From Neckera pumila (Eukaryota > Streptophyta > Bryopsida > Hypnales > Neckeraceae), in contig OZ018415.1 in NCBI GenBank assembly GCA_963969595.1, positions 23,317,782-23,381,781 of the forward strand: a stretch of 64,000 bases of DNA, read 5' to 3'. The position numbers were made by a program, and so were the translations under genes. Below the pieces are notes generated by a model. The model was not told the DNA's origin. It saw only the letters and a program-made list of their open reading frames with translations, and searched no databases. Shown here one piece after another: positions 18,443 through 54,138 of the stretch; position 1 is the stretch's first letter, and every line of letters begins with the position of its first letter.

Positions 18443-18812
18443 TGTCACGTAAGGTGACATCGGGGCCATTCTACATCATATTGTAGTATTAGATGAACTC
18501 CTAGGTGAGTTCAGATTAGATGAGTATTAGATGAGTTCATTTTACTTTTGGATGAGTTTCATCTAAATGTTAGGGTTCATCCATCTTAGGGTTTGAGTGT
18601 TTAAGTGGAGAGAGCTCCTTGACTTGACATTGTTGTCAAGTCAAGTTTTGTGAGCGTTTTGAGAGAGAGTTGTGTTTTTAGTTTTGCTTGGAGATGGTGG
18701 ATTATCATTTAGTAAAGCTTCACTTCTTCTCTTACATTTACACTCTTTGATTCTCTCTTTGTGGAGTGAGAGCCGCTTGACTTTGTGTGTGTGTTGATAC
18801 GATAGTTTCTCA
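18443..18812 (+). repeat. Left LTR segment (3' part of the LTR only)
   Basis: Aligns with 53,626-54,031, from 'ggtgaca.cggggccattcta' to 'gatagtttctc'. The right copy has about 30 extra bp from a small internal duplication of the 'gatgagtattagatga' motif. The segment starts at TGTCAC, which lies inside the complete right LTR, so the first about 110 bp of a normal LTR are missing here. It ends TTTCTCA, the inverted complement of the TGAGA that starts the right LTR. Confidence 0.85.
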
Positions 18813-20073
18813 CTTGACAACAATCCTCTTCTTCAACTTTGTGGTATTGCAAATCGTTAAGGAGGAGCCTAAACCAATTTCTTGAGTGTGGTACGGGTTT
18901 GAAGGTACTCTCAAGCGTATTCTAGCAATTTTAGATTGTTCTTAGAGTGATAGGGAGTGGAGGAGAGAACTTAGAAATTTGTGAGAGTTTTTCCTCAAAA
19001 TTTTCAATTTTTTGCTTGTGGTAGCAATTTTGAGTGGAAAGACAAAATTTCAACTTCTAGATTGTTGCTAATACTTGTAGTAGTAGTAGAGGAGTTCCAT
19101 ACGGTTCCAACGCTTTGAAAAACGTAAGATTTGAGTGATTTTTGAGAAAGTTATAGGGTTTTGAAGTTTGTTGGAGTTTTTGCGATGAGTCCCTGGAGTG
19201 GAGCGCCGCGTTTTTGAAATCTACATTTTTTGAAGATTTTATGAAATCTAGGTGATTCGAACATTTTCTGAAATCTAGGAAATTTCAAGAATTTCTGTTG
19301 AAATCTAGGAAATTTGAAGATTCTGGAGTCTAGGATTTTGGAAGACTTCTGAACTGTACCTTTATCGTACATTTTGCAAAATGCAGAATCTTGCGCTTTT
19401 GTAGATTTAGAATTTTTTTTTTTTTTTTTTAAAAAGTGTAGGGTGCAAACTTTGAAATTTAATTCTAGGGATGTTTTAGGTTGGATTTGAATAAAATTTG
19501 CACCTACTTTATGTGAAATTTGCCAAGCAATCCAACGGTATTGTTGGTTTGGCATTTGGAGTTGATATTCCACCTGAAATAGGATTTTCTATGGGCTGAA
19601 TGGTGTTTTTAAACACCAATTTCCAAGGATTTCCAAGAAGTTAGGTGTTGGGAGCCTCACTCGACACTTTAGAGTGTCCCCTTTGTTTTGTCACAAGATT
19701 GGCGACTCGTGGTCATCCATCACAAGCGTGTGCCGGTGGCTCTGATTCACACTTTTCTTGTGTTTTTGCAGTTTGTTGTTTGGGGAAGAGGATCCAGTTT
19801 GGATTTCTTGTATTTTGTTTTGGTACCTTCCCTCATGGCGGACATTGTTGCCGGAGGTTTCTCATTTTGTTCCATTTTGTGTTGTATCTAATTTGTGATA
19901 GGCGAATTGTAAGGGTGAGATCGGATTTATGATTGACGAGACTCTTTTGTTGTGGATTGTTGGACCTATGGTAATCTAGAAGTGATGACTGATGCACTAC
20001 ATAGTTTGGTGTTTTTGCAGATGCAAATCGCCCTAAACCTTTAGATAGTTGCAGGTACCCAGATAGTCCGTTT
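18813..20073 (+). other. Retrotransposon leader (5' untranslated region)
   Basis: About 1.26 kb between the LTR and the probable gag start, with no long plus-strand frame. No convincing tRNA primer-binding site was recognised directly after the LTR ('cttgacaacaatcc'). A minus-strand frame at 19,151-19,573 arises from repeats of 'gaaatctaggaa' around 19,235-19,340 and is not considered a gene. Confidence 0.6.
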
Positions 20074-21642
20074 ATGGTGCACACTAGGAATTAATATTAT
20101 CGATCTCCGTCACCAGACAATTTGGAGGATATCCACACCGACAACTTTGAGCCAACGGTGGATACCAACGAGGCTTTTGAGCCTATTTCAACGTAGGATA
20201 CTACTAATAGGCTTCAAGTTGGGAGTGTGGATACATTTCATGAAATGGAAGACGATCACCGCAATTCAATGCATGATCGATTCTCGGGGCATGCTGGGGG
20301 CATTTCTTTACCAGATTGGAAGCTTCGCTTCCGCACTTGGATGAAGGAGAAGCGTCAAAGGTCACCCAGTTTTAATGACTGGCATGCCTTTAAGCTTCTA
20401 CCTCAACATTTGGAGAGTGAAGTTCTTCAAACATATGAGCAATGGACAGAGGCCAACTGGCTCAATCTTCAGCAGATTGAGCGATATTGGGAGGCTCGAA
20501 TAGAGCTTATTACTGCTCTTAAAGAGGGCGTTGCATCTTCCTTGTTGCCTTCTGAGACTGCAAGGGAGATAAAACCTCAAATTTCTTTTGAAGAAACTTC
20601 TGAAGAAGGTACTAAAGTGAAGCAATTGATGCCTACAAGGAGGCAAGAGAGCGGCCAATTCATTTCTCGGATGGCACTAGCTACCCAGGCAGCCCTGCAA
20701 ACCACTGGGACATTGCCTGCATTTGAACTGCTGCGGTTATTTCTTGAGCATTTCGATATTGAATACGGAGGCTTTCGTCAGGATCAGATGCAATGGATCC
20801 AGAACTTCAAAAGGGAGAAGGAAGATACTCCGAGGACCATGTATACTCGTTTGGCTTACTTTGTAGTAGAATCCAAAGGTGTTTTCACTGAAAGCCAGCT
20901 GGTTAAGATCTTTTTTTCAAAGATTGATAAGCGGTTACTTGATTTGGCTTCACCGCGGATTATTTTGGACTATGAGGGTAGGGCCACTTTGGCCCAAGCC
21001 TTGTCAGTGGTAGAGAGGTGTGATCAAGCCTTTTGTCAGCATGATGCTACATACATGGTCTTGTAGATGGCTAACATTTCAAAGTCCAAGAATCCTCCTT
21101 CGATTTTTGGCAATTTGGTTGACACAACACCTGATTGCCACTTGCATTGCTGGCATTGTGGTGAAGATGGAGACACCAAGAAAGATTGTCCAAAGCTTCC
21201 TAAAGATTCGCCTCAGCCTTCACAGTCTAAAAAGAAAGAAGAGATCAAGGCTGAAGTGAAGGTTGAAGCAAAGCCTAAGAAGAAGAAGCTAAAGTGCAAT
21301 AATTGTGGCCGTACCAATCATGATGATGATCATTGCTTTCAGCTTCATCTCAAATTACGGTCTGCAAGTTATGTGTCAGCTAAGTCACAGTGGGAAAAGA
21401 CTCTTGAGGCTAAGGTTGCAAAGCTTGAGCAGAAACTTAAGACTTCTGCATCTCTTGTCCAAATCTTTGAGCCAAGAATAGTTCCTAGTGCTCTAGAATC
21501 TAATATGTATATGTTTGGAGCATCTGGAGAGATGGTAGCAGCGGTTGCAACTTGTGCTCAAACAACGAGGAAGTCTATAACTTCCACAAGCAGTGATAGT
21601 AATGGACATTCACAAGTTTGTCACAGTACTCCATCAGATTAG
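20074..21642 (+). pseudogene. gag: Retrotransposon Gag (capsid and nucleocapsid), broken
   Basis: The most likely start is the ATG at 20,074 (MVHTRN), as in many Ty3 Gag proteins. One frame continues to 21,642 but is interrupted by TAA at 20,092, TAG at 20,194 and TAG at 21,064. The middle part (20,245-21,063) has a Gag-like helical region containing 'FLEHFDIEYGG' and 'RTMYTRLAYFVVES'. Downstream are two nucleocapsid zinc knuckles near 21,146 and 21,296. The first, CWHCGEDGDTKKDC, lacks its histidine; the second, CNNCGRTNHDDDHC, is a complete CCHC. A lysine-rich linker joins them. Gag would package element RNA; the stops make this copy inactive. Confidence 0.82.
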
Positions 21643-22885
21643 ATTGGCCAAGCATAATTGCTTTTATCGTTTTGGCTTAGTTGATGTTGCCACTACAACT
21701 AGGACTCCAAATCCTTTATTTTCTAGAGATGGTGATTCCATTTCAAAAGATGTTACGCAATCCTTGGCTCACAAGGTGTTGCAAATGCCAATCTTCTCTG
21801 GTTTAGAATTGATAGCACCAAGCTTTAAGCCTGCAGGAGTTTTTCATTTGGCGGGGACTATGTTAGAGGGAACGACGGATTTGCCATCTCTACAAGTCTC
21901 ACAAGCCGTTACTGAGATGCCTTTGGTTGAGGGTGTTGAGGAATTAGTCAAATTACGGTCTAAGCTTGCAACTAAGGCTATTTCTGTTTTTGAAGGGCAC
22001 AAAGACATCCAATCTTCAGTATATTCATCTTTAGACACGTCTCTTGTGGCAGGAATAGCTTATCTTGCAGATGTTTCCGCAAGACCCGCTCGAGAGTGTC
22101 AAAATTTACAACCTAGAGTTATTCGCCTGGTGAATGACAATGCCATTTTTGTCGTTTCACGCACGGGTAGTCATACTACTCGTGCTATACCACTAAGAGT
22201 TATGATGAACTCAGGTGCACAACCAATTATAATTAGCAAGCAACTTGCTGAGGCTTTTGGTTTGACAAATGCGGACTTAGAGCCTTGTCCCTTCACCATT
22301 GTGACTTCGGTGGGAGGCACAGAGCATGCCATAGGTTATATTAAGGAGCCATTGCGCTTAATCTTTCATGTGGGTATGGTACCTACTTACTCACATTTCT
22401 CTGTGAGATGTGCAGTCACGGGAGCTACCAACTATGATATCTTAGTTGGTCAATAAGCTCTTTATCCTCTCGATTTTGGTTTGGACAACTGGACTGAGGA
22501 GGCATGGATTAGATTGGGTTGGTCTTCAGGCGATGGGAAGAAGCAATTGATTCCTATAGCATTTGCAGCGGCTGCCATAACTATGTCAGCAGAGACTATG
22601 TTTGGTTGCAGTGCCTTAACAGCAGATTTGCCATGTGCACCACTTCTATTGAAAGAAAGTTTTGCATATACTTGCAGTGCAGAAGAACAACATGATTTGC
22701 TACCTTTAGAGATCCCTACTCGTCACTTCAAGGATCCACTTCCACCATGGGGTACTTGTAAAGAATTATCTCAACATTGCCTCTAGATTGTAACATCTCT
22801 AGAACCTTTACATGTTCCTTCTACTTCATCTCTATCCCCCTTTGTCCAATCCATTAATTGGCATCCACCACTTGAAGGATTTCTC
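21593..22885 (+). pseudogene. Retropepsin-type protease domain, broken
   Basis: This frame is +1 relative to Gag and overlaps its end by 50 bases, which could be either a natural Gag-Pol frameshift or decay. The aspartic protease core is seen as MMNSGAQPIII at about 22,202-22,234, where the catalytic DSG/DTG aspartate is replaced by Asn (AAC at 22,208), and ILVGQ just before 22,454. A TAA at 22,454 and a TAG at 22,784 interrupt the frame. About 110 codons of linker with no recognised domain lead to the methyltransferase. The enzyme would cut Gag-Pol, but the Asp-to-Asn change would abolish activity. Confidence 0.75.
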
Positions 22886-23187
22886 TTGTGGAGCTATTTA
22901 GAGGCATTGGTACTGATTTGGCAGCAATTTTGGAGGTTGGGCTTAAAGTTAGGCGGTACATCCATGTGGATAATGGATTTATATCCAACCGAGTGGCCCA
23001 ACATTATCTTCAAAGGTTGTTCGCGCTCTATCCGGAGCAACTGCCAGCTTCTGCCATCCATGGTTGTTTTGGCCAACTTCCTCAAGATGTTTCTCTCATT
23101 AGTGATGAAGATTTGAGGAGGTTGGGCCATATTGATTTACTTATTGCTGGATGGCCTTGTTAAGGTCATTCACAAGTTGGAGCCGGT
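22886..23187 (+). pseudogene. C5 cytosine DNA methyltransferase, N-terminal half
   Basis: Starts after a one-base frame change near 22,880. Motif I is ELFRGIGTDLAAILEVGL (S-adenosylmethionine binding), followed by an acidic residue in YIHVDN. Motif IV is IDLLIAGWPC, with the catalytic Cys codon at 23,158-23,160. The next codon is TAA (23,161), then GHSQVGAG in the same frame, the usual continuation after the catalytic Pro-Cys. The coding match stops at 23,187, where LINE sequence begins. The rest of the enzyme resumes at 49,031. It transfers a methyl group to cytosine C5. The clade within the family cannot be settled by eye. Confidence 0.85.
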
Positions 23188-26100
23188 TAAGAATCGAGTT
23201 GTGGATCGAATTATTGGCGACTTTGGCCAAGGATTGCAGATGAATACTATGTGGGGATTGGAACTTTGTAGAGAATAGAGTTGACAAATCCAACTGGTGT
23301 GAGAAACTTATTTCTCCAGCTGAGCGTCAAGCTTTTGAGCAATTGAGAGGCGCTTTACATATGAGCGATCATTTCCCTAGCTCTAATTCCATTAAGTTTT
23401 CATGGGATAATCGTCAATGTGACGGTGTGAGGATCCTAGCCAGGCTTGATTTTTTTTACTCTCTTCTTACCTATAGGCGGACAGCCCAATCCAGTTGCAA
23501 AATACTTTATAAGAGGCAATAGTAACCATTCAGATCATTTACCCGTTTGGGGAAAGTTCACTCTCCAAGCTTCAGCCCCGAGAAAATCATCATACAAAAT
23601 GAGCGCCCGATATTTGGATGACGCCCCGATAAGAGCTCAGATTGAACAGATTTGGAAGTCTCATCATAACTTGAACTTCTTTGGTAAACTTTGCAAAGTT
23701 GCGAAGTTCTACAAAGAATACTGTATTAGGGCGGTACAAGCTCAACGAGTGGAGGAAGCCCACTTGAGGTCCCAATTTACAGAGGCTATGGAAAATCTTC
23801 AAGCGGATTTGACTAATTTGGACCACTAGAGATGCCTTAGTGATCTTGGTGAAAAGTTGAGTGCTGTTGAAAAGCATCATGAAGATCCGCAATATATTAC
23901 AGTGGAAGAAAGTTGGAGATGCTTGCTCCAAGGAATTCTTCCAGGCGCATAAGGATCGAGGTGATGGCTCAAAGATCATGGCTTTAGAGGACTCTGTAGA
24001 CACCATCTATATAGACCAACCCAATCTAGAGAGGATTAGTTCTGATTTCTATGCCAAAGTATACACAGCTGATCACAACTCTATAAACCGGGAAGGGGCT
24101 GAGAGATTTTGTCTTAGAGGGGTTGCAAGTCGAGTATTAGAAGCACTTCAGAACTCTCTCAAACGGCCTCTATGTATGTCTGCATTGAAAGGTATGGACA
24201 TCGATAAAGCTCGAGGACCGGATGGTGTTATCATTGGCTTCTTCAAACAATATTGGGAGGTTATCAAGGAGGGCTACTTCTCAATGATCTCAAAGCGATC
24301 AGGCATGACACCATGCCTCCAGGTCTCACCAATGGGCTCATTACTTTGCTACATAAAGGAGGTGAGAGAGAAAATTTTTCCAACTGGCGACCAATCACTT
24401 TGTTGAATGTAGCATACAAGATTTATGTTAAGGCTCTACAACTTTGATTACAGCCAGTTCTGATGGAAATCATATCCCTTGACCAGTTAGCATTTTTACC
24501 CATGAGATTCCTCTTAGATAATATTTTATTAACTCATGAGACCTTGGACTGGGCGGTACACTTTGGACAACTATTCATTTTTATGAAATTAGACTTTAGC
24601 AAAGCCTATGACATGGTGGACCTAGGCTTCTTATTCCATACGATGGCAATTATGGGTTTCTCAACAAAGTTTGTTTCCATGGTTAAACTACTTTTTCAAA
24701 ATGCATCAGCTGTTGTGAAGATCAATGGTGCTCACTCTCTCGTGTTTGGAATTCAGAGAGGAGTCCGGCAAGGGTTCTCCTTGGCTCCCTATCTTTTTTT
24801 TATTGTGACCAAAGTTCTCAATGCCATGGTCAAACTTGGAGTGCAAGAAGGGTCAATCAAGGGTATTACACTACCTGTAGAGGATAGGCAACAAATTATA
24901 GCTCAATACAAAGATGATACTTCCCTAACCCTGTTAGGGGAGGAGAAGGTCATTTGTAATCTAATTTATACATTAGATACCTTTTATATGGGCTCCGGGT
25001 TGCTAATGAATTGAGATAAATCATGCGGCTATTGGTGGTCCAAGGATGACCTAGGACAACTACAATGGACTGAACAGCTAAACTTACTTTGGGTGGAAGA
25101 AAGTGATGTTAGTAGACTATTGGGATCCATTTTTGGTCTAAACTTGAGCTCGGGTGATGTAGACAAGTTCCTTCTGGATAAGGTACATAAGAGACTGGAG
25201 TTTTGGTGCACGACCAAAATAAATACAACGGGTCGTACAATTGTGGTCAATCATGTGCTTCTTTTAGCGTTGTTCTTCTTTATAGCAATATAGGCCGGCA
25301 CCCTGGCAGGAGTGGCAAAATGTAAGAGCACTATTCAAAATTAGGCCTCATTAATCCGGTTGATGCTCTTATGGCTCTCATGGCCAAATGGGTACTTAAA
25401 GCATGTGAGCCAAATAGTTCCAATCTCCACGTATTACTAAGGTACTGACTAGCTCATTTTCAGCCTTATAGTGGTGGGAATTGGGCCCTAAGTCTTGAGT
25501 ATTTTACCTTGTCTAAGTTCCAAGTGAGATACGGTTCAAAGACTTGGAACCAAGCGTGTGAAGCTTGGAGAAAGCTAGTTGGCAACGTGGTCTCATGTCA
25601 ATCTTCACTACCGGAGGAGCTCTTTAGTGTATCTTTTTGGTGGTCGGAATCATCTCCACAGATTGGGCCAAATTTCTCTCGTGTGCACATAGCTAAGCTA
25701 CACAAAGCAGGGCTAAAACATATTAGAGATGTGTGGACTAGGACCGCATTCTTTACCGCGGCAGAGGCAGGAGTAAAGTTTGGCTTGCTTCCAGAGGAAG
25801 GAGGAGCTTAGGATGCATCTACCCTCCCATTGCAAAACACGTAGGGTACTCTCCTCTCTCTGGATTACCCCCCTCCAAAAGATAATGAGTAGTTGGAGTG
25901 CTTTGAGACGGATGATACAGAGCTTCTGATATAGGTTGTTCAGTCACGGCCCGAGTTCCATATCACCATTGGAGGCCCTTCTAGGAACTGGTCACTTCCA
26001 GGAGAGACTCAACTATTCATTGTTCTTCCCACCTCGAGTATCATTGTAGATCGTCAAGTGGACACGTCTCTGACTACTGGTCAGAGTGTTAGATGCATGG

Positions 26101-27205
26101 GTTCTTTCCAACGAGTTAGGATATCTAGTATCTTTAGAGGTGCAAAGAATTCCCCCATCTTATTATACTATGGACGTGTGGGTTGACTTGATTGGGACCC
26201 TGACAAATTGCAATGGTCAACTAATGAGGACTAGTTCCGTTTATGCACTTCAGTGCTTGAAGAGGCCGGGAAATGCTTAGAGAGAAACATGTGATCCCTA
26301 ATGTTATTGAAAGGAAGTGGCAAGGCATCTTACTAAGATCCTATAGGTTGTGATGGCAATCCATGTGGTCTAAATTTCAAATTCCCAAAGAAGTTGAACT
26401 GCTATGGCTTATTTGGCATCGTGCAGTGGCGGTTAATGCTTGGCGTGGGAGAATTCAACAAGGAATTGATATGGGTTGCCTTGTGTGCCCAAGAGATACC
26501 AATGAATCGGTCTTACACAGGTTCTGGGAGTGCCTTTCTTCACAGCAAGCATGGCAGTGGGGGATCCATATCATTAACACCTTACTTACCTCAAGAGAGG
26601 CTAAAGGTCCATGGTGACTGCTAACTTGGAAACAAGGTATCTTCTCAGACAGGATCCCTTATAAATTTAACGAAGTTAGTAGCATGTGAGTAGCACTCAG
26701 GACAATGATCCTTTGGACGATCTGGATAAAACGGAATGACTCGGCCTTCAATAGCATTTTATGGAGACCTATCAAACAACTGCAATAGATTTGGCTTGGC
26801 TCTGTAGACTACAGGCACTTGGAGTGGGATAAAACTTATAGATCTATGGTGAAGAAACCGGACTCTGCTGTGACTATCTAAACTCGGTTTGAGAGGCATC
26901 GATGTCGCTATGGTGTTGTAGCTACAATGGTGGATGACAACCCTCGGTGGACTTTGTCCGACCCTAGGGCCGGTTTCATCTTCCAACCTCCTTAGGGCAC
27001 CACGCGTCACGGGGTGCGGCTCATGCCGCTCCCCGGGGTGCTTGGCTTTTTTCTCTTTTTCTTTTTCTCCTTTCTTCTATTTTCTTCTTTTCTCTTTTGT
27101 TCTGTTTGTTGTGCCTAGGCCGCTTGCGGCTGGGTCTTTGTATTTTATTTCTTGCAGTAAAGGGTCCCCTTTATTTGTGTCAAAAAAAACCCAAAGAAAA
27201 ACACG
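23188..27205 (+). mobile_element. 5'-truncated plant L1-type LINE, decayed
   Basis: About 4 kb of non-LTR retrotransposon on the plus strand. Only the last third of the AP endonuclease is left: CGDWNFVENRVDKSN near 23,250 and the SDH catalytic triplet at 23,530-23,538. Reverse transcriptase follows: a GPDG block near 24,215, LDFSKAYD near 24,589, RQGFSLAPYLF near 24,769, and YKDD at 24,907-24,918 in place of YADD. A zinc finger of the zf-RVT type (CLVCPRDTNESVLHRFWEC) lies near 26,497-26,555. Many stops and frameshifts are present. The 3' end is near an A-rich stretch at 27,181-27,205. It starts inside the methyltransferase and extends right up to the broken codon. Confidence 0.8.
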
Positions 27206-27953
27206 CAGTCATTTCCATTCGGAGGTCAAGACCAGTTGCTGGCGCTATTAAATTTAGAAAGTTTGAAAATGAAAATCATGAGCCTCACGGATCCAAAAAG
27301 GGTGCCTCGTAAAGGACGCCACTGTAGAAGCACCTACCAATGGTACATGCATTTACAGAATGTAGGAGCCATAGTTATATTCCAGGTTTCTGGGTAGTGC
27401 CTAATGGTGTTGCCATTGTTCAGAAAAGAGTGACATAAATTATGAAGATCCTGAAATTTGAGGTAATTATTCACTCAGCGAATGAGTGCAAGAAAATCCT
27501 TGTGGTCGGGAGTTCACATTATTCATCCATACCTTAAGTTTGGCTATTTGTTTGTTTTGTTTTGTTTTGTTTTGTTTGTTTGTTTGTTACATTGAGATCT
27601 CACAGACCGTGCGTCCCCCGGCCGTGTGGGTCGGAAAGCCCTCGGTGAGGAGGGATGCACGGGCTTGGTTTTGTGGTGTTTGGACCTACCATGCGGAAGT
27701 TATTGAATTTCAAAGTATTCATTGAATAAAAAAATTAGAAAAATACTTTTTTTTTATTTTGATCGCATTCTTGGTACCGTTGGAAAGGTCTTGGTGAGGA
27801 GAGGTGGACGGGCTTTGTTTTGTGGCGTTTGGAATGAAGATGTGAAAATTATTGAATTTTAAAGTTGTTTGTATCAATAAAAAAAAATGAATTTTCCTTT
27901 CGTTTTGGCTGTGGCAACGGCACAAGGCACATTAGTTCAAATGAAAACAGGCA
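27206..27953. other. Non-coding spacer with small repeats
   Basis: No gene is recognised. A TTTTG/TTTG microsatellite lies at about 27,551-27,588. A block of about 110 bp ('cggtgaggagggatgcacgg' to 'attgaatttcaaag') at 27,630-27,735 is repeated, diverged, at 27,778-27,865. Confidence 0.5.
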
Positions 27954-28246
27954 AGGTAGTCTGCTCTTGAAGCAACCATTAAAGAGCTGTTTGTCTTTTC
28001 GGGGAAGCAAAATTCCTTCAAACAATTTTCAGTTAATTCTTGTAGTTAGGAAAATGGAATTGGCATCTACCACGAGTCGTTTCAAAATTTTTGGACCCTT
28101 GTGGAATTAGTTTCAACAGTTTGAAGTTAAAAAATAGTGGTCACTAAAACCGACCACATCCTCCATCGTACAGAGCTGGTACATTGAAGAAAGCAAAATG
28201 TACATGATCGTTTGTACTAGCCAGTTGCTTTGAAAACTAACTACCT
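27954..28246. mobile_element. AGGTAG-ended MITE (family 2)
   Basis: About 293 bp, start AGGTAGTCTGCTCTTGAAG, end CTAACTACCT. It shares 'aagagctg', 'ttttcggggaagc', 'ggcatctacc' and 'accgaccacatcctcc' with the copies at 57,295 and 13,186. The flanking TA is lost on at least one side. Non-coding. Confidence 0.6.
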
Positions 28247-31377: not shown

Positions 31378-31381
31378 TTAA

Positions 31382-36586: not shown

Positions 36587-36599
36587 TAAAATGTCTAGA

Positions 36600-42513: not shown

Positions 42514-42615
42514 TTTGAAGAATATATAGCATAGTCACCGTCATTAATGCATGACATTACCATAACAGACGTTGGCCACTGAGCATTCAAAGGGAGTGAC
42601 AGAACTAGTTGGGTA

Positions 42616-43015: not shown

Positions 43016-43336
43016 TAGCCGCCATCCACTTCTTCATGAGCACCATCCTTTAGAGAAGTAATGAATACCTAGAGGCATCGTTGTCAGAGGCGGTGCCGAT
43101 TCATGAACTTGCTAGATTGGCGTAATATGTCAATTTCAAAAAGATACATTTATTGCACTGCGGCAGTCCTTAAGAGCTAAGTGTCAGATCCATTTACAAA
43201 TGTACACCACGCATCAGCTTCATATTGACAGCACACTTAAGAACCTGCCTTCCCAAGTAGCTTTCAATGCTAATTTGAAATTCTGAAATTGCCATCCTTC
43301 ATAATGTCACATTAAAGCCAGGTGGTCTAAGTTTCC

Positions 43337-43749
43337 ATTCTATAAAGAGAAGGCAGTGCATCAAGCAAGAGCCATTTCCACTCCAAGTGCAACCACCTTC
43401 TGTAGTTGAGAGCAACTTGTTTCATGTAGTCAATTCTGAACTCATGCTTTTAGAGAAGTACGTCGCTCTGATTTCTAGTCTGCATTATAGGAAGGAAAGG
43501 AAGAGGCGTAGTTCATTGTATTTTTCTTCTCCAAAGGCACTTTAGAGATCTAGGATGAATAGAGGAAAGAAAGTGATGTCAAAGGTAGGTCAATCTACAG
43601 ACACAGACTTGCACAAAACTCTACACTTTGGAAGAGGAGGGAGTGGCAACAACAACAATTGCAGAGACCCTGACGTCAATGCCATGCGAGAGACATCCGA
43701 GGATACCACCATCAAAAGAGGCGATGCACTACACAGAGTCGTTGCAACT
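43337..43749 (+). other. Possible promoter and first exon of an unrecognised gene
   Basis: 'ctataaag' near 43,341 could be a TATA box. From ATG at 43,555 a frame reads MNRGKKVMSKVGQSTDTD and continues with a Gly/Asn-rich part, ending at a possible donor 'gcaact|gtacgt' at 43,749/43,750. Beyond that, the open frame to 43,887 turns into hydrophobic, intron-like text. No downstream exon or domain was recognised, so this is weak. Confidence 0.2.
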
Positions 43750-43887
43750 GTACGTATCTATGCAAATCCTTGTATTCTTTTAGTCATTTCTATTTCTTTG
43801 CAATTGTTAGAAGGCTACGGGAAACTCACAAATTTGGTTCAGTCTATTCTTTTCACTCTCATTTGCATGATACTATTGTCAGGATAA

Positions 43888-44573
43888 ATATATGCACATT
43901 TTGCAAGCGCTTAATAGTGTAAGTCACTTCAATGACACATTTTCTAAAAAATAAGTAGGCCTTTCTGCCCTCAGACACTTTGATTTCATAATGTTTTCCG
44001 ATAGTGTTATTCAGAACTTTCTTGTAGTATGCCATGTATAATGAAAGATAATCTATTCCTACACGCTTATCCTAGAAATTCGTTAAAATATCCCATTTCT
44101 GCAGTAGTGATGTTCTAGGTTTATTATAGTTATTGTTTGGCTATGCATGCCAATGAGGAAAAGTAGAACAAACTATTAAGTATGTAGTAGAAACATTAAA
44201 AGTCCTGAAGTGGAAACATTAAAATTCCTCTCTGCAAATGATGACTATTATTCTAAATTTTGTATATCAGAAGTATATTTCGTACTCGACACTAATGAGT
44301 GTTAATCCAAGTTTAGGGTGTCCATAAATGTCACTACAAAAATCAAATTAGATGGAAAGAATTGCTCTGAAACAGAAAACATGAGTACGAGTTTGGACAT
44401 TCTCTTGAAAGCCATTTGTGAATTAGAATTTCCCGAATCTTCTTCTTCACGATTGCAAACTTTAACCTAAAGAAATACTAAAAAAGTTCTAGTCAGTGCT
44501 CTTAAAGTGGGTTCATAATACTTAACCAAATGATTAATATTGAATTTTTTTTAAATTTACCCGGCATTGCTGG
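43888..44573. other. AT-rich spacer, nothing recognised
   Basis: No coding, RNA or repeat feature was recognised. Confidence 0.4.
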
Positions 44574-44945
44574 TAGGGTTGTCATACTGGACGGACGTCC
44601 GGTTTGTCCGTCCGGTAGAGGTCCCGCCCATCCGATGTAGTCAACACATAGTTGACTTTTTCATAAGCCAAAAAATAGCCACGTGGCTGCCCCGTCGCCG
44701 CCATCTGGCTGCCAGGTGGGACGTCGGGCGCGGACGAAAGCGGTAGATGCACGGACCTCAGCGTCAAGGCGCAAACGTCAATGGCCGGGTGCAAACGGAA
44801 GTGGTAGGGACACGGACGTGAGACAGGGCGGGAACGGAAGAAGTTGGGGCGCGGACGTTAGCGACCAGGCACAGACGGAAGTGATAGGGGCGCGAACGTG
44901 AAACAGGGCGCAAACGGAAGAAATAGGGGCACGGACGGATTCAGT
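44574..44945. repeat. GC- and CpG-rich degenerate minisatellite with palindromic head
   Basis: It opens with the palindrome-like 'ggacggacgtccggtttgtc' plus 'cgtccgg'. From about 44,720 it repeats loosely units of 18-25 bp of the form 'gggcgcggacggaagtgata', with variants 'cacggacgtgag' and 'gcgcaaacggaag'. Base composition differs sharply from the AT-rich surroundings. Frames on both strands arise from the repeat and are not called as genes. Confidence 0.65.
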
Positions 44946-45107
44946 AAAGTCAAGATTGCAATGGTTATCCTTGCACAAAATCTTGAATAGAAAAATTGTA
45001 ACCATTTGTTTTGAAGATTGGATTTTTGATGCTAAAAGTAGACTTCAAGAAGAACCTTTCAAAAATATAAACTACTAAAAGTAGAAATTTGGTTCGGATT
45101 TATTTAA

Positions 45108-46033
45108 CCCCTAATAAAGGACCAAGGTATTTCTTCCATCAGAAGACACTCAAAACTGCCATTTCTATTGCAAAGCCAAGAAAACTTTAGAAATGTTTTT
45201 TTTTTGCATATCTAACTATAGGATCTTATAGTAGACTAGTACAGGAATGTGCAGAAAAATTTTTAGAAACCTTTGCTACGTAGATTGCAAGATTTTTGCA
45301 TTCAAAGTGGAAAAAACAATTTTTTTGGCACCTTGTTCAAGTAGATCTTTTGGCTTTGAATCCTCTTAACTTAAAATTATTGCACTAAAGATCATATTCT
45401 CCTAATATTTTATGTTGAATAGTCAAGTTGAGAATCTAGGAAAAAGAAATTTATTAAAAAAACATTTAATTTTCACACATTAAAAATTGTTAAGTAACAG
45501 TACGGTCAAGATTCAAAGGAATACTGTACTGTTAATAGCTTCAAGAGGTAATTGGAACACAATAATCCCAATGGTTGGATGGTTCTAACATACAAACTAA
45601 ATCCTATCTTACAGTTTCTTTTGGAAAATTTTAAAAATTGCATTCCAAAATGAGTTCTGTAATTTATTTTTTCAAAAAAATGCTTAGATTGCCAGAAGAA
45701 CTATGATTGTCTATAACTTTCTCATAAATATTCCAAATAGAATGAATCAAAGCTTCACATATAGACAAAAATATAATCTTGTATGGGAAAATAATTATAA
45801 AACCTATTTTGACTCTTTGTGAATTTTTTTGGCTCCCCGCCAAACTCTGATTTTGCTTACTGTACTATAACTTTTGCTTCCGAGCCATGATTGAAAAAAA
45901 TATTTTATATCCACAAAGCTCTCACACAATTGACAACCTCAAAAAATCCCAAAAACTTTCACTAAAAGTTAAAGCTACAGGAACTTGTCCAGACCCAATT
46001 TGTCCCTCAAGGGGATAGACAGTCCTTTAGAGG
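45108..46033. mobile_element. TTAA-flanked MITE (family 1, subtype b)
   Basis: A 926 bp element with TTAA at 45,104-45,107 and 46,034-46,037, start CCCCTAATAAAGGACCAAGG, end GTCCTTTAGAGG. The interior runs parallel to 14,902-15,821 throughout. A further lone terminus 'gcatttaggggttaa' lies at 46,076-46,090. Non-coding. Confidence 0.75.
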
Positions 46034-46657
46034 TTAACTTCACAATATTGTCGATACCCTATTTTGGTGTCTTGGGCATTTAGGGGTTAATGTCATTTTT
46101 GGCATCACCAAAAAAATTTCAATTAGGGCCTCTATGTGCTTTCTAGTGCCATATTGCACCAAGATAAGATAATATTGGTAAAAAGTTGCAAAAGATTCTG
46201 AATACTTTTTTCTCTAGAAAACTTGAATTAAGAAACTTCTTGGTTAGAATCGCCAAACAATGGATTAAATACAGTCATTGACGTGATATGTGCTAATGTA
46301 ATATTTTCTATCCAATATGTAGATGAATGTTGAAATTTAAAGCACCACTAGAACATATTATATTGCAACTTTGGCACTTCATTCAAAATGAAAAAACAAG
46401 TATTCTCAATGAGTACCTAAGTTGTTATGTAAGTTTGGTTCTAAAATGTAAAAGGGTTGGGTTTCTACTTTCCACTTTCCAATTGAATTTGGTTTCTATA
46501 AAGTAAATTAATTTATGAACCAATGGTTCTAAACTTCTAATAAAAAAAAAAAATTGAAAGAATGCATAGTTAAACAGTGGAAATACTTGAACAAGTGCAC
46601 AACACCACAGAAGTTGTTTCTATTAAGTTGAACTTTTCAGAATTTTATGGAGCTTAA

Positions 46658-47577
46658 ACCCTAAACACCCAAGTTACATTTTTTGGCAACATAGCAATTT
46701 TGGACAACTCACTACAAATGGACTTTTTTGTTTTCTTTTGAAATTTTCACACAACATGTGCTTGAGGAGTAGCTTCAAGGTCCAATAATTTCCAGAGCTT
46801 TTGACCACGCGGTTAAGAAGTTATTATATGATGTGTCATTTTCAATATACCATGGTAGCTCTAAAAAATTCTGAAGAATCACTTTTTTAAAAAAAATTAA
46901 AATTTGAAATCCGTTCTTTACACTTATGTATATGTGGGAAGCTTTGAATCATTTCCTTTTTATTTATGAGATGAAAGTTATGAGCAATTTTAGCTTGCGG
47001 GTAGTTACGGATAAACTCCTAAAACAAACTCTAGAGTCCTTAATTGAATTCTATTATCACAATTTCTGGGGAAAAAAAAAGAAATGAATATAAATTGTGT
47101 ATTCCAACATTACAACTACTGTAATTTTCATTTTGCAATTCTATAAAAAAGTTATTAACAATTTAATACTTTGAATCATTCTTACTTCTTCCTATTTACA
47201 AAGTTTTTCTTATATGTTGTACAATTCCAAATGATTTGAAATTTTATGAACATGTACCCAACTTATGTTGAAGAGTCGATCTAAAGAGTAACCACCATTT
47301 AGGAATTTTTGTAGGTACAAATGTGACCTTCTTAAGTGTAACCAACTAGACTTTTGCATGGACAAAAGAGGGGTTCTATGAATTCAATTGCTAATATCTT
47401 GCAATCTACACGGTAGAAATTTTTGAAATTCTTCCCACATCTTCTCAAACAAATGTATTAGAAGATCCTACGGTTACATGCATTTGAAATGTTTTTTTTC
47501 TTAAGATTTGTGCTTGTACTAAAAATGATAATTTTGGGGCGTTTAGGGTGAAAACATAGTCTAAAGCATATAGGGGT
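46658..47577. mobile_element. TTAA-flanked MITE (family 1, subtype a)
   Basis: A 920 bp element after TTAA (46,654-46,657), start ACCCTAAACACCC, end TATAGGGGT, then TTAA at 47,578-47,581. It parallels 16,475-17,410, for example 'ttggcaacatagcaattttg' near its start. Ends are more degraded than in other copies. Confidence 0.65.
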
Positions 47578-47581
47578 TTAA

Positions 47582-48098
47582 CTAACAAAAGATAAACCCA
47601 AGAAAATCTTTCTATTTAAAAAAAAAAAATCTTGAAACAACTTTGTAACTCAGTTACATATTCTCTAAATCAATCAATCAATCTTTAACATGATGTTGAA
47701 ATATAAAAATTAAATATTCTTAACGATATTCAATGCACTTTATTTCTTTCAATTTAATGGTAAATGTTTTCATTTTTTTAATGATATTTTTTAATTAAAA
47801 TGCCAAAGACATTTACCATATGTCCATGCCCTTTCCATTCAAAAATGCTTGCTTCCTACACATTCATCAATGATCAATTCACACAAGACACAAGTGATCC
47901 AATTGCACTGAGGGAAGAAAAAACAAATTATGTATACGAGGGTTTTGACTATTGTATACATTTATGGTTTTATATATGAGATGTTTGGCAATTGCAAAGT
48001 ACACATGTTCCTCTCTAAGGATGACTTACCTTTTACATAACCACCACATGCTAAACTTCAAAAAATAAAAAATAAAATATTATGTACAAAAACAACAA
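47582..48098. other. AT-rich spacer, nothing recognised
   Basis: No gene or repeat end recognised. Confidence 0.4.
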
Positions 48099-49018
48099 TC
48101 AGGCATAGTCCAGCAATGGGGGGGCCTTCTTCAAGGTATCTAGAACATCTGGCACAGACGCCCTTTCATGCACATCTTCTTTTCGGAGGCTTCCCAATTT
48201 CAACATCAAGTTTTTATATTGGTCCGGGTTTTTGGTTGTAAAAAACTTTGGATCCCATTCTTCTTTCCAAATTTGACTCGCTATCCATCCTGTTGCATAT
48301 GCATCAGTAGCCATGGAGTACAAGTATGTTGGTTGCATGACCTAAAGCGAGTTTGTTGAGCCCTCCTCTCCATATATGTAGAACAATTCTGGGGCTGCAA
48401 ACTTTCGCCCATTTTTTTCCCTTTGAAGGGTCTCCATGGTACAATAACCATACCTTGATGGCTCATTTTCTACAACTAGGCCAAAAAGCCTCCAATCACA
48501 AATTCCAATGTACACTGTATTAACTTTCCAATGATTGAAATGGAGCAGAACATTGGATGGAGATATGTCGTTGTATATATCGTGCATTGTAGCACTTCCC
48601 CACAATAACAAGCAACGATAGTGCCAAGTTCACTCGATTTCTACGATAAGTTGCCACCCATCCAAATTCTTCCTTTGTCAAGCTGGTATCTTGCTCATGC
48701 ACAATCTCATCCACTTCCACTGATTCGCTCACTTTTGAGTTGTATTTACACAAGAAAGAAATTAGAGACCCCCCATTCCACCAAAGCGTATAGCCTTCCA
48801 TCGTTTTAGGATGCAGTTATGCAAGTCTAATGATGCCGGGATGCTTCACCGGACACCCCCCCGCCTCATTTATGATTGCTTGGCGCTTCTCCTTTTCGTT
48901 GAGGGTTTTCAAAATCTTTCCGGCAAAAAAAACCCAACTGAGAATATTCTTCAATTTTGTAAGCATCACCTTCCTGACAGTCCCATATGCACCAATCACT
49001 TTCTGTTCTGGTATGGCA
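48099..49018 (-). pseudogene. Protein kinase-like pseudogene
   Basis: Read on the minus strand. A glycine-loop-like KVIGAYGTVRKV at about 49,000 is followed by a Lys-containing strand (AGKIL). A stop at 48,817 and a frameshift near 48,610 interrupt the frame. Then comes a catalytic-loop-like IYNDISPSNVLLHF (Asn replaces the usual His/Arg before Asp), ICDWRLFG in the place of DFG, and FAAPELF (APE motif). A TAG at 48,342 precedes the C-lobe (YATGWIASQIWKEEW ... ERASVPDVLDTL). It ends with TGA or TAG at 48,099. It would have been a Ser/Thr-type kinase; altered motifs and stops make it non-functional. Its N-terminal end abuts the resumed methyltransferase at about 49,030. Confidence 0.65.
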
Positions 49019-49030
49019 ATCACTTTCATT

Positions 49031-50023
49031 GAATTGGATGACATTTGGTCTAGTCTATTTGCGGACTTGATGCGACTCACGCAATGGTGGTTTACACATC
49101 AATCAACTCCGCCAGCTTACATTTTTGAGAATGTGCCTTCACTAGGTAATATGCGGCAGAAGGTTGTAGAGGATGGGCATTACATTAGCCAATTTCTTGG
49201 TTCTCCAATCTTTATGGATGCTGCAGCTTTGGGTTCTTATGCCCACCGGCCTTGTTGGTTTTGGACCAATTTGGCACCATCACATGTGCTTTCAGCAGCA
49301 CTTGTTCAAGTTCCTCGACTTGTGGATCGCAAGGTCGATGATATTTTAGATGATCATCATATTTCTTTGGGTGTTTTCAAGGATGATGCGTTGCCACTTA
49401 CAATAGTTAACAAGGTGGGAGCCCCTCGAGGTGCATTGCCTACTTTTGTGACATATCCGAGATCTTATGCATTTCGATCTCGTGGGCCTGGCATGATTTG
49501 GGATTCACAATCTCAAACTCATGAAGAGCCTGCTGCAGATGAGTGGGAACGTGCCATGGGTTTTCTTACGGGCACCACAGCTGCCCATGATCTCAAAAAA
49601 GGTCAAAGACGTTTTCTTTTGGGCCAAGCTATGGATCTCAATATGCTTGTGTGGATTGTTGGCACTTGTTTTGCTATTCAGCAGTATTATGATGGCCAAT
49701 TGATTACTTTGAGGATAGAGAGCAATAGTCAGGGGACAACGGAGCCACAATCCAAGCTTCACATAGAAGTGAAGGAGTCTGAGGCACTTTTTTGTTTAAA
49801 GCAGCAGGCTGAGGAAGAGCTTCAGACTCAACTTGTTTTTGCTGCTTTGGCCCAAGATATTGGAAACTTGGAGGCTCAAAGGATGCTTCCACGACTATTT
49901 CTTCGTAACATTTCACCTTTTGATGGCTATCTAGCTTCACGGACTGGTTGTAGTGGAGAGGCTTCTCATTTGACTTCAAATGCAGATTCTAAGGGCAAAG
50001 AGGTTGTCCCTTCCATAGATTAG
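49031..50023 (+). pseudogene. C5 cytosine DNA methyltransferase, C-terminal half
   Basis: Coding text resumes at ELDDIWSSLFADLMRL, the segment that normally follows motif IV. Then come motif VI, FENVPSLG (Glu at 49,127), a motif VIII-like RPCWFWTNL, a target-recognition and motif IX region (RGALPTFVTYPRSYAFR), and motif X, LLGQAMDLNMLVWIVG, near 49,618-49,665. The frame is open to TAG at 50,021. The last about 110 codons have no recognised domain and form a linker to reverse transcriptase, in the same frame. With 22,886-23,187 all expected motifs are present in order, and only one or two codons seem to be missing at the break. Confidence 0.88.
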
Positions 50024-51660
50024 CAATCACAGGCCGTGCTGGTACCAAGTGGTGATCCTTTTGTGGAGAAGGAAACCACAAAGTTTGATAATTGACCATT
50101 GGAGTTGGGGCCACATCTTATTGGTGCCGAAGCACAAAGGGTACGGGCATTTATTCGCTCGTATCGCAGTTGTTTTGCCTCTAGCCTCCAGGATCTTGAA
50201 GGCTACAAGGGCAAACTTGTTCATATTCATCTTGAGGACGACCATCCAATCTTTAGACGGCCTTATAGGCTTAGTGCATCCGAGAAGGTGGGTGTTCAAA
50301 CTCAATGCCATGAGTTATTAGCAGCGGGAATGATTGAGCTCTCTAATGGAGAGTATGCTTGTGCTACAGTTATGCCTGCAAAGAAAGACAACTTTGGCAA
50401 TTGGACAGAATAAGGGATGTGTGGTGATTATCATCTAGTTAATCGTAAGACTAAGTTAGACCAATATCCAATGCCAATGCTAAAGGAGTTGTTTGATGCG
50501 GTGGGATTTTCTCAAGTTTTTAGCACTTTAGACTTGAGATCTGGTTATCACCAATTACCTCTACTTTTGGGAGATCGAGTGAAGACAAAATTTTGGAGAG
50601 TTGATCAAGATGGCAAAGATCAACTCTATCATTGAAATTTTTTGCCATTTGGTCTCAAGAATGCACCAGCTAAGTTCCAGAGGGTGATGGACCGAGTATT
50701 AGCCGGCTTGTTATTTGCTAGGTGCTATATTGATGATGTTATCATCTTTAGCAGTAGTCCACAAGATCACGTGAGACATTTGTAAGCAGTGTTTGAGCGG
50801 TTGCAACAGTGGGGACTATGCTTGCATTATGGCCAGTGCAAGTTCTTTCACAATCAGTTACCATATTTGGGCCACATGATTGTTCCAAGAGGTCTTGGTG
50901 TACAACAAGCAAAGGTGGATGCTTTGCAAAAGATCCCAGCACCTAGCGATGTACCATGGCTTCGTGCATTCCTTGGCTTGGCAAATTACTATTGTCGTTT
51001 TGTCAGAAACTTCAGCTTAATTGCCAAATCGCTTACTATTCTTACGGGCAAAGATCAGCTATGAACTTGGAGGCGTGAGCAACAACATGCATTTAATACA
51101 TTGAAGCAGAGGCTCGGTTCAACGCCAGTGCTTCGATGCCCTAATGTTTCTAGATCCTTTCAATTACACACGGATTGGAGTGCTATAGGCCTGGAAGCAG
51201 TATTGACACAGAAAGATGAAGAAGGAAAGGAGTATGTTATGGCTTATGCATCTAGAAGCAATAATAGTGCAGAATCTAACTATTTTTTATATGAACGAGA
51301 GGCTTTGGCAGCAGTTTGGGCCATTGCACGCTTTCGGCCTTATTTGTATGGCCAAAGGTTTACTTTGGTGACTGATCACCAGCCTTTGAAATAGCTTATG
51401 GAGTCAAACAAACTCACTGGCAAGCTTGCTAGGTGGACATTATTGCTTCAAGAGTATGATTTTGAGGTTGTACATCGAGCAGGCATCACTAACTTGGATG
51501 CGGATGGACTTTTACGCAATCCAAGTCCTTCAGATAAGGATTTGACTGGAGCCAGGTGGCACAGGGACTGTGACAGAGAAGCAATTTTAGGTTGGCATGC
51601 AGCCTTTTATCTTACATTGATGTCAGGATCTACTTTTGAGGCGTCTATTGAAGACTAAGA
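50024..51660 (+). pseudogene. pol: Ty3/Gypsy reverse transcriptase and RNase H, broken
   Basis: Same frame as the methyltransferase. RT begins near 50,100 with RRPYRLSASEKVGVQTQ, then DYHLVNRKTKLDQYPMPM, LDLRSGYHQLPL, and the catalytic YIDD at 50,726-50,737. RNase H shows LHTDWSAIGLEAVL near 51,165, EREALAAVWA near 51,296 and TDHQPLK near 51,371. Stops lie at 50,021, 50,090, 50,411, 50,633, 50,783, 51,062, 51,392 and 51,656. Nearly all sit where a Trp or Gln codon is expected, so single transitions explain them. The enzyme copies element RNA into DNA and removes the RNA. Confidence 0.88.
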
Positions 51661-52800
51661 TGAAGAGTCTGACAAGTCTCTAGTTGTGAATGATGTGTGG
51701 GAAGATCTTGCAGTCTTGCAGAAACTTCAACAAGGGACATTTCCTTTAGCTATCTCTGCTATGGAATGAGATAGAGTTAGTCATCGAGCAGCAAGGTTTC
51801 GTTGGAATAACAATTTGCTATTTCGTATGTGGCCAGATGGAACTAGGCGCATAGTTCCAAGGCCAAATCAGAGAGCTTCTTTGGTGCGGCAAGTGCATGA
51901 AGATCTTGGACATTTTGAAGTGCGCAAGACACATTCCATGTTGCGCAACCAATATTAGTGGACTGGCATGTATCAACATGTTGCCACTTATGTTTCTTGG
52001 TGTGAGGTGTGTGACCGAGTTAGGTCAAGTTTTAATACATTATCACCTCAGTTGAGGCCTTTACTTATCATGGCTTGGACTATCGTTGGTCTTTGAATTT
52101 TGTTGGGCCGCTTGTAGTCACCTCACGCGGAGCTAAATATGTATTGGTGATGGTAGAGCATTTTAGCAAGTGGATCAAATTTGTGGCTCTACCACAAAAC
52201 TCAACAAAATTGGCGGCTATGGCTTTTTTTAATCGTGTTTTGGCACATTTTGAAGCACCTGCTAAGGTGTTGATGGATCAAAGACGGGAATTCCTTGATT
52301 CATTTGAAAAATTGTGTACTAAGGCCCTAATAGATCACCATACAATTTCTAGAGATCATCCTGAGGCCGACGGCTTGGCTGAGTGAGTTGTCCAAACAGT
52401 CGAGCGTGGTTTACAAAAATATGGATTGCTGCGTGGCAACCACCGTGATTGGGACTTGATGTTGCCATGGATTGCTATGAGCTATTGTTTCAGCAAGCAA
52501 GCGTCGTTGGCGTCTTATAGCCCTTACCAATTATTGTATGGCCGAGAGCCAATTTTACCCAGCTTGGTATGCAAGAAATTGGCTTCAGTTGTGGACTTAG
52601 ATGATCCTGATATTTGGACTCAATGTCTTCATGATCGAGCAGAGTTTTTCAAAAGAGCCATGCCAATGGCCATGGAGAACTTATCTATTACTCAACATTG
52701 TGATATTTTACGTTACACCTACATTCGTAGCGGCGCTTATCAACCTCAATTGCAAAGATTATGTATATTTGCAGTGTGAAGCGCCTACAACGTTGGATGT
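51661..52800 (+). pseudogene. Ty3/Gypsy integrase, broken
   Basis: The zinc-binding HHCC part is HEDLGHFEVRKTHSML and SWCEVCDRV at 51,896-52,015, with a TAG between its halves. After a frameshift near 52,060 the DDE core follows: the first acidic position reads Asn in SLNFVGPL (AAT at 52,096), the second is in MDQRREF, and the third (Glu) is in HPEADGLAE. A TGA at 52,384 interrupts the core. The C-terminal part (SYSPYQLLYGREPILPS) is normal. Another frameshift near 52,755 leads to the SH3-like tail and PHD finger. Integrase inserts the DNA copy; the altered first Asp would abolish this. Confidence 0.82.
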
Positions 52801-53155
52801 CAAGGCAGGACGTACTATCCTTCGAGTGAAAAATATTTTGCCTAGTGGCATTTTGTTGTTGGAAGGCAAGGATGGACGAGAGTGTCGGGAGCATACAAAA
52901 AATTGCGCTCTTTGTCACTTGCCCATTGATGGCATTGTACGCCCCGAATTGGCAATGGTGCCAGAAGGTCTTCGTTGTTTTGTTTGTGGAGAGAAGAAAG
53001 GTGCGGCTACTATGTTGTTGTATGATCAATGCCAACGTGGTTGGCATATAGCATGCTTGACTCCGCCTTTAACAACTCTGCCTCCACGAGATTGGATTTG
53101 TCCTCGTTGTCGAATCTCTTCAGGTCATGCTACGTCTTTGGACAGGCACTGAAGA
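52801..53155 (+). pseudogene. C-terminal PHD finger of the Pol polyprotein
   Basis: After the integrase tail (TILRVKNILPSGILLLEG) comes a Cys/His cluster: CALCHLP, then CFVCGEKKGAATMLLYDQC, QRGWHIACLTPPL and DWICPRC at 52,976-53,111. The spacing is that of a PHD zinc finger (C4HC3). The third Cys is Tyr here (TAT at 53,021), which fits a G-to-A change. PHD fingers bind histone tails, usually H3 K4 states. It occupies the place where chromoviruses carry a chromodomain, so a role in targeting integration is a reasonable inference. The frame ends at 53,150-53,152. Confidence 0.82.
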
Positions 53156-53504: not shown

Positions 53505-53512
53505 AGGGGGGG
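53505..53512 (+). promoter_or_regulatory. Polypurine tract
   Basis: AGGGGGGG lies four bases before the TGAGAGGG that starts the right LTR, the normal place for the plus-strand primer of an LTR retrotransposon. Confidence 0.75.
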
Positions 53513-53516
53513 CACT

Positions 53517-54031
53517 TGAGAGGGTGTTTTTGACACTCTCTTATGTTGATTTTGATTGATGTTTTGGTTGACGTTTATAATTACACGATGTGTTGTATAT
53601 GACGATCTATAATTATACAATAGCTGTCATATAAGGTGACATTGGGGCCATTCTACATCATATTGTAGTATTAAATGAACTTCTAGGTGAGTTCAAATTA
53701 GATGAGTATTAGATGAACTCCTAGATGAATTCAGATTAGATGAGTATGAGATGAGTTCATTTTACTTTTGGATGAGTTTCATCTAAATGTTAGGGTTCAT
53801 CCATCTTAGGGTTTGAGTGTTTAGGTGGAGAGAGCTCCTTGACTTGACATTGTTGTCAAGTCAAGTTTTGTGAGCGTTTTGAGAGAGAGTTGTGTTTTTA
53901 GTTTTGCTTGGACATGGTAGATTATCTTTTAGTAAAGCTTCACTTCTTCTCTTACGTTTACACTCTTTGATTCTCCCTTTGTGGAGTGAGAGCCGCTTGA
54001 CTTTGTGTGTGTGTTGATACAATAGTTTCTC
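53517..54031 (+). repeat. Right LTR, complete
   Basis: Starts TGAGAGGGTG directly after the polypurine tract and ends TTTCTC. With the left segment's final TTTCTCA the ends form a TGAGA/TCTCA inverted pair, the usual LTR pattern. The part 53,626-54,031 matches the left segment. The first about 110 bp (53,517-53,625) match only 54,034-54,138. Confidence 0.75.
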
Positions 54032-54033
54032 CT

Positions 54034-54138
54034 TGAGAGGGTGTTTTTGACACTCTCTTATATTGATTTTGATTGATGTTTTGATTGACATTTATAATTA
54101 CACGATGTGTTGTGTATGGTGATCTATAATTACACGAC
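54034..54138 (+). repeat. Extra partial LTR (5' part) after the right LTR
   Basis: A second copy of the LTR start, TGAGAGGGTGTTTTTGACAC to 'ataattacacgac', follows the right LTR after two bases. It stops exactly where the disrupted host repeat resumes. It supplies the LTR portion that is missing at the left edge of the element. Confidence 0.85.

Follow-up and report, generated by a model that had tools for sequence, protein, structure and literature searches.

A probable family of Gypsy-type retrotransposons with a predicted DNMT3-like methyltransferase and a PHD finger, represented by a dead copy in Neckera pumila

The closest published relative of the element described here is KnitGypsy-Dnmt3 of Klebsormidium nitens, a Gypsy element with a Dnmt3 gene that is reported to be under purifying selection and whose repeats are given a DIRS structure in a figure legend (de Mendoza et al. 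2018, PMC5890265). The same text describes two other retrotransposon-borne C5 methyltransferases, SymbioDIRS-Dnmt3, which is CG-active in yeast, and SymbioLINE-Dnmt, both from Symbiodinium; these belong to DIRS and LINE elements, however, and represent acquisitions unrelated to the Gypsy one (PMC5890265). A 2025 study places DNMT3 members within retrotransposons of streptophytes and dinoflagellates (PMC12344493), and a 2019 paper reports DNA-methylase transposons from green algae and charophytes and their absence from land plants, tracheophytes for example (PMC6338049). Chromatin-reader modules are known from other Gypsy elements, the chromoviruses (Tcn1, Chlamyvir, CRM and others), which carry a chromodomain (PMC6317226). 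Here we analyse 64,000 nucleotides of the Neckera pumila genome (GenBank assembly GCA_963969595.1, contig OZ018415.1, positions 23,317,782 to 23,381,781; hereafter the window), in which one element reads gag, protease (PR), C5 methyltransferase (MTase), reverse transcriptase (RT), RNase H (RH), integrase (IN) and PHD finger. Like KnitGypsy-Dnmt3, it joins a Gypsy-type Pol to an unrearranged Dnmt3-type methyltransferase; unlike the chromoviruses, it has a PHD finger as its reader module.

We interpret the locus as a dead copy of a green-lineage family of Gypsy-type retrotransposons with this anatomy, at a probability of roughly 0.72, a figure that covers anatomy and family only and not the mechanistic steps discussed below. 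Gag, protease, RT, RNase H and a DDE integrase are all present with the RT-RH-IN order characteristic of Ty3/Gypsy elements, and this domain order, together with the K. nitens relatives, argues for the Gypsy-type label. Pfam was run on the stop-free pieces of the copy; RT was recognised at 50645-50785 (RVT_1, 1.3e-9), with a further piece at 50414-50632 below the cut-off (0.0081), and gag and protease fell below their cut-offs, yet could be aligned with an intact relative, L001. The element begins with TG at 18443 and ends with CA at 54139, with ACAT on either side; an earlier reading made from the sequence alone (the sequence-only reading) had placed the left end correctly and the right end one base short, at 54138.

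L001 (CADCWO010000201.1, 9285 bp), which was detected with an integrase-PHD profile, is filed under a Synechococcales bin. Judged by its sequence, its content is eukaryotic mobile DNA, and its presence in a cyanobacterial metagenome bin, together with the naming of the related protein P0002 after a bacterial bin, is probably the result of binning contamination. The contig ends overlap by 127 nt, closing it to 9158 bp with a single copy of the terminal repeat; the closed form may be a true DNA circle or the product of a collapsed assembly. Gag, protease and methyltransferase occupy one frame up to 3491, the gag start lying at the opposite contig end in the same frame, and RT-RH-IN-PHD follows from 3492 to 6635, again in that frame. 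DNA identity between the window and L001 is 76% over 50021 to 53127. Bacterial and archaeal genome contigs yielded nothing with P0002 and L001 with the integrase-PHD alignment, and no relative was found in viral contigs searched with the methyltransferase, integrase-PHD and ORF2 (second open reading frame) alignments. A protein search with L001 ORF2 gave 994 matching proteins from 7993 scored candidates; the best 120 form the list of relatives used below, and among these the named hosts of the proteins nearest L001 are liverworts. Pfam, the homologues and L001 thus bear out the earlier proposal of a Gypsy-type element that combines a methyltransferase with a PHD finger and has its domains in this order.

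The identity of the methyltransferase was settled through its homologues and not by a direct Pfam match. When each half of the interrupted gene was searched alone against Pfam, no methylase model was matched, and matches to PDB sequences were weak: DNMT3A was top for half 2 at an E value of 0.055, and for half 1 DNMT3 chains (E 0.24-0.53) ranked after a designed protein at 0.11. The DNMT3 positions covered by the two halves are co-linear (about 7-83, then 123-173). A search with half 2 returned 33 homologous proteins, the best of them 73% identical over the full half-2 length, and 14 of the 33 carry a precomputed PF00145 assignment. One homologue, P0001, spans both halves unbroken, its residues 113-215 corresponding to 22879-23187 of the window and 218-546 to 49034-50020, and in P0001 and P0006 the linker on the protease side continues into the methyltransferase. 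The sequence-only reading had made its claim depend on support from hidden Markov models for both domains; such support was direct for the PHD finger (PF00628, 2.1e-9) and came only by way of the homologues for the methyltransferase.

Motifs I, IV, VI, VIII and X stand in canonical order and the best match is DNMT3, so the predicted enzyme is DNMT3-like; a DRM-type enzyme was ruled out by the canonical order, and a bacterial restriction methylase by the better scores of DNMT3. The catalytic cysteine is kept in 48 of the 49 methyltransferase rows that have a letter at this position, and the catalytic glutamate is conserved. Directly before the cysteine stands proline in 28 of the 49 rows and glutamate in 21, and EC for PC in motif IV is an unusual change beside the catalytic residue. 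Comparison of the window with L001 shows that the amino-acid sequence of the methyltransferase has been conserved (dN 0.22, against 0.098 from RT to PHD and 0.46 for the linker that follows the enzyme), with dS running from 1.06 to saturation depending on the piece, so that the ratios are rough.

The PHD finger has the C4HC3 pattern and scores above the PF00628 cut-off, one cysteine having become tyrosine in the window copy. The integrase C-terminus and PHD finger together (52601-53149) found 76 homologues among 107 candidates; PF00628 is precomputed on 40 of them, and many of the others align to the integrase part only. Among the best 120 proteins and L001, the finger is present in 89 of the 90 sequences that reach at least 236 residues beyond the integrase match (P0203 is the exception), and its spacing pattern was seen in 80 of the 120, a list whose query itself contained the finger and whose ranking favours PHD carriers. 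These counts indicate a real PHD finger that is general to the listed relatives. Its closest counterparts by sequence are the fingers of CHD4, PHF12, KMT2D, UHRF1 and KDM5, several of which bind the unmodified H3 tail, and by analogy the finger of the element may do the same. In chromoviruses, the reader module is located behind the integrase. Four proteins in which the methyltransferase lies between RNase H and integrase (P0155, P0164, P0202 and P0204) extend about 200-340 residues beyond the PHD finger and may have a further C-terminal domain.

The methyltransferase occupies two positions among the relatives. Domain maps of the 120 proteins show nine with MTase-RT-RH-IN-PHD, three with MTase-RT-RH-IN and 30 with RT-RH-MTase-IN-PHD (including P0212, with a weak match), while P0190 has the methyltransferase first and a disturbed order behind it. 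Where the gap between RNase H and integrase is short, the enzyme is found there in 0 of 90 sequences, and where it is long, in 30 of 31. The enzyme either precedes RT, as in the window, Klebsormidium and Closterium, or lies between RNase H and integrase (RH-IN). On a tree of RT-RH-IN (88 rows remaining from 112 after thinning at 85% identity, without P0190, built by a quick method and rooted at the midpoint), one change of position, N versus C, suffices once the rows that lack the enzyme are set aside. With the 'none' rows kept, 'before RT' has to change 10 times, 'none' meaning that the called protein shows no methyltransferase, which in split-ORF members such as L001 lies in the other ORF. 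On a methyltransferase tree of 56 rows the RH-IN group requires two changes, with P0164 outside it (support 33); on one of 52 rows, from which P0178, P0210, P0017 and P0032 were dropped as long, gappy or distant, it requires one and falls on one side of a branch with support 95/85. The position of the methyltransferase thus follows the polymerase tree, and the enzyme travels with its element; it may have been captured once and moved later, or captured twice from related donors.

The K. nitens protein P0163 (KFL_009030040) has the order of the window, MTase-RT-RH-IN, and we infer that it is a copy of KnitGypsy-Dnmt3. On the polymerase tree it falls on the L001 side (56 of 88 rows, SH-aLRT 100) and not with the RH-IN clade, but basally there, on a long branch shared with P0145 and subject to the midpoint root. 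In contrast to the window and L001, P0163 lacks the UAG, being a single open frame, and the gene model stops before the PHD finger; another K. nitens protein, P0187, has the finger and no methyltransferase. The L001 side also holds Closterium and two liverworts, Calypogeia and Riccia; the called proteins of the liverworts end before the PHD finger and show neither domain. The RH-IN clade includes Tetrabaena, with a weak partial match, and Haematococcus, with none. In the Tetrabaena socialis protein (P0212, from a volvocine alga), the methyltransferase match (E 5e-5) lies between RNase H and integrase, which suggests that the enzyme is decayed or mis-modelled; the matches in P0192, P0195 and P0206 are likewise partial only.

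Retrotransposons are normally targets of DNA methylation, and a lineage that keeps both a DNMT3-like enzyme and a histone-reader finger would make it testable whether an element can write its own copies' epigenetic state and choose its chromatin. Tentatively, and at somewhat less than even odds, we picture a green-algal and streptophyte lineage that pairs a methylation writer with a histone reader, in which the PHD finger would be ancestral, the two methyltransferase sites would mark two clades, a leaky UAG would set the dosage in one of them, and the cDNA would integrate from a circle-like, split-repeat form in spite of a retroviral-type integrase. Most ribosomes would probably stop at the UAG, with the RT-to-PHD part made by readthrough, so that in the subfamily of the window and L001 the methyltransferase would be made at the level of Gag. 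That it then enters the particle and methylates the cDNA, most likely at CG, is nearly an even bet; methylation of cDNA has been proposed for the Symbiodinium DIRS elements (PMC5890265). We hold much the same view, with the balance just on the negative side, of the idea that the integrase binds the H3 tail through its PHD finger, and that the finger contributes to the choice of the chromatin in which the element lands.

Of the competing explanations, the strongest concerns the substrate: instead of methylating the element's own cDNA, the enzyme may act on host chromatin or RNA, or restrain the element for the benefit of the host. Such alternatives were raised by de Mendoza et al. for these elements (PMC5890265), and we regard them as credible, if the less favoured choice, as the location of the enzyme beside protease and polymerase would suit action within the particle and its relation to DNMT3 argues for DNA as the substrate.

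A second alternative concerns the terminal repeats. The window copy has repeat A1 at its left end and B1-A2-B2 at its right (A1 and A2 are 97% identical over 300 nt), within TG...CA ends and a 4-bp duplication. The two like direct repeats expected at both ends of a long terminal repeat (LTR) element are lacking in this copy, and L001, with a single B-A, cannot decide the matter. PAT, Ngaro and VIPER show the same layout, A1 at the 5′ end and B1, A2 and B2 at the 3′ end, but encode a tyrosine recombinase (PMC6681497); the window element instead has a DDE integrase, with TG...CA ends bordered by a 4-bp target duplication. The split direct repeats (A1-ORF-B1-A2-B2) of the DIRS/PAT/Ngaro type are thus found here, in one copy, with an rve integrase core in place of the recombinase. 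The element could instead be a conventional one with an LTR composed of B and A, the window copy being a one-off circularly permuted insertion, for instance of a 2-LTR circle cut internally. The position of B1 directly behind the polypurine tract, the tract-B-A-leader order of L001, as in an ordinary LTR, and the occurrence of the split form in a single copy all fit such an event. Nevertheless, we consider it unlikely, given the outer TG...CA ends with their 4-bp duplication, the DIRS structure that the KnitGypsy-Dnmt3 legend gives to its repeats (PMC5890265), and the B-A junction of L001 (CACGACA GC TGTCACG), where a central 10-nt palindrome, GACAGCTGTC, would suit a site used by the integrase.

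The third alternative bears on expression. The methyltransferase lies upstream of the UAG in both the window and L001, outside the RT ORF proper; as in KnitGypsy-Dnmt3, a Dnmt3-type enzyme with canonical motifs forms part of Pol, here placed before the stop. The 'one polyprotein' of the sequence-only reading has to be given up in this respect: the in-frame UAG parts Gag-PR-MTase from RT-RH-IN-PHD in both copies, and a single chain would arise only by readthrough. In both, the codons are TAG CAA TCA. Tobamoviruses, among others, use UAG-CARYYA as a type I readthrough signal (PMC5382211), and the element shares with them UAG followed by CAA UCA, here a predicted readthrough site. At least 15 of the 33 methyltransferase homologues terminate at the matching place, judged by their last residues; the stop is therefore kept, the codon itself not being shown by these ends. 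Were there no readthrough, ORF2 would depend on non-AUG reinitiation or on a transcript of its own, and the match to CARYYA would be coincidental. Two called proteins, P0110 and P0111, do begin with M just past the matching place, where gene callers also write GTG and TTG starts as M, and the motif follows 4 of the 926 plus-strand TAGs in the window. In L001, however, it follows only 1 of 101, exactly at the frame-preserving stop; the window copy has the same codons, the first ATG of L001 ORF2 comes only at codon 117, and P0163, P0120 and P0153 join methyltransferase and RT in a single open frame. We therefore judge this alternative to be less probable still than the permuted insertion.

Finally, a chance chimera, in which a host methyltransferase and a PHD gene dropped into one retrotransposon copy, would account for the 25.8-kb split and the failure of either half to match a Pfam methylase model, but is rendered negligible by the intact L001, which shares the order and refutes it, by the 33 homologues, by the continuous protease-side linker of P0001 and P0006, and by the 12 listed relatives with the enzyme before RT-RH-IN (P0190 likewise, though disturbed) and 30 with it between RH and IN; since relatives, one of them intact, share parts and order, the two domains were not brought together by chance in a single defective copy.

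Several observations count against our interpretation. The window copy is dead, with 14 in-frame stops in the coding pieces checked (the conserved UAG not counted) and frame changes as well, and its split repeats occur in one copy only. The PHD-containing query mentioned above tilts the list of relatives towards the finger. P0166 and P0172, which have long N-termini, and P0191 from Haematococcus show no methyltransferase, so the enzyme can be missing; the check set by the sequence-only reading, whether intact family members lack either extra domain, thus finds both in the intact L001 and no methyltransferase in these three members of the wider group. Outside the subclade of the window, motif IV reads EC and not PC in the 21 rows noted above (P0153, P0160, P0190, P0228 and others), and the two structure models are of poor quality (mean pLDDT 54 and 65). 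The methyltransferase of KnitGypsy-Dnmt3 produced no methylation in yeast, a result its authors call inconclusive (PMC5890265), and we infer methylation activity, H3 binding and readthrough from sequence.

As for novelty, which the sequence-only reading had suggested for the combination with a PHD finger in a land-plant-like genome, this kind of element is already published as KnitGypsy-Dnmt3, while the term PHD has 0 occurrences in the main text of that paper (PMC5890265). Neither PHD nor methyltransferase occurs in the main text of the chromovirus survey (PMC6317226), and in the literature found on PHD fingers with Gypsy elements or on retrotransposon methyltransferases, none joined both in one element or described two methyltransferase positions. 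Within these sources, the new points are the PHD finger in nearly all sufficiently long relatives, the two methyltransferase sites, the UAG-CAA-UCA, and split repeats despite a DDE integrase. The relatives from liverwort assemblies, whose called proteins are too short for methyltransferase or PHD finger, are where the reported absence from land plants (PMC6338049) can be checked.

Table 1. Coordinates of the element and its parts in the window.
Feature	Position	Strand	Evidence
Left target-site duplication copy, ACAT, 4 bp	18439..18442		Adjoins TG at 18443; same 4 bases after CA at 54139
Repeat A1, left terminal repeat, begins TGTCACG	18443..18811	+	322/333 nt identical to A2 in longest aligned stretch
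Decayed gag region, CCHC zinc knuckles; stop codon at 21064	20197..21639	+	57% over 133 aa to L001 ORF1; zf-CCHC 0.038, below Pfam cut-off
Aspartic protease region	22190..22345	+	gag-asp_proteas 0.0051, below Pfam cut-off; blastn 22052-23173 against L001 1413-2535, 66%
First half of methyltransferase (motifs I to IV); stop codon at 23161	22876..23187	+	74-84% to P0001-P0003 and L001 over 94 aa; co-linear with DNMT3
25.8-kb interruption of methyltransferase	23188..49030		Absent between halves in L001 and P0001/P0002
Second half of methyltransferase (motifs VI, VIII, X) with C-terminal linker	49031..50020	+	33 homologues, best E 4.6e-159; DNMT3A top in PDB, E 0.055
In-frame stop UAG CAA UCA between Gag-PR-MTase and RT-RH-IN-PHD	50021..50029	+	Identical codons at L001 3489
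Reverse transcriptase, decayed	50096..50785	+	RVT_1; 84-87% to L001/P0110 over first 105 aa
RNase H	51065..51391	+	RT_RNaseH_2 5e-33
DDE integrase	52036..52776	+	rve 1.2e-10 on 52036-52383; 81-82% to L001/P0110 over 104 aa
PHD finger, integrase C-terminus, one cysteine lost here	52976..53110	+	PF00628 2.1e-9
Polypurine tract AGGGGGGG, just 5′ of repeat B1	53505..53512	+	Tract also precedes B in L001, near 6940
Repeat B1	53516..53622	+	93% to B2 over 104 nt
Repeat A2	53625..54031	+	97% to A1 over 300 nt
Repeat B2, right end, ...ACGACA	54033..54139	+	Repeat comparison
Right target-site duplication copy, ACAT	54140..54143		Adjoins CA at 54139

The DNA that separates the methyltransferase halves in the window (23188-49030) holds an RT of probable non-LTR type (24448-25011, RVT_1 5.4e-14) and other sequence. 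The remains of this probable non-LTR retrotransposon (23188-25011) begin near the methyltransferase break and include what is presumably a GDWN-type endonuclease motif. Further in, at 34079-36493, lies an apparently spliced aspartyl protease gene of TAXi type (TAXi_N, TAXi_C), and one simple transposon insertion is therefore unlikely as the full cause of the interruption. The minus strand of 38226-42270 has several long ORFs, one of 555 aa, with no Pfam match; we take this region to resemble a transposase of the MULE type that has a SWIM-like zinc motif.

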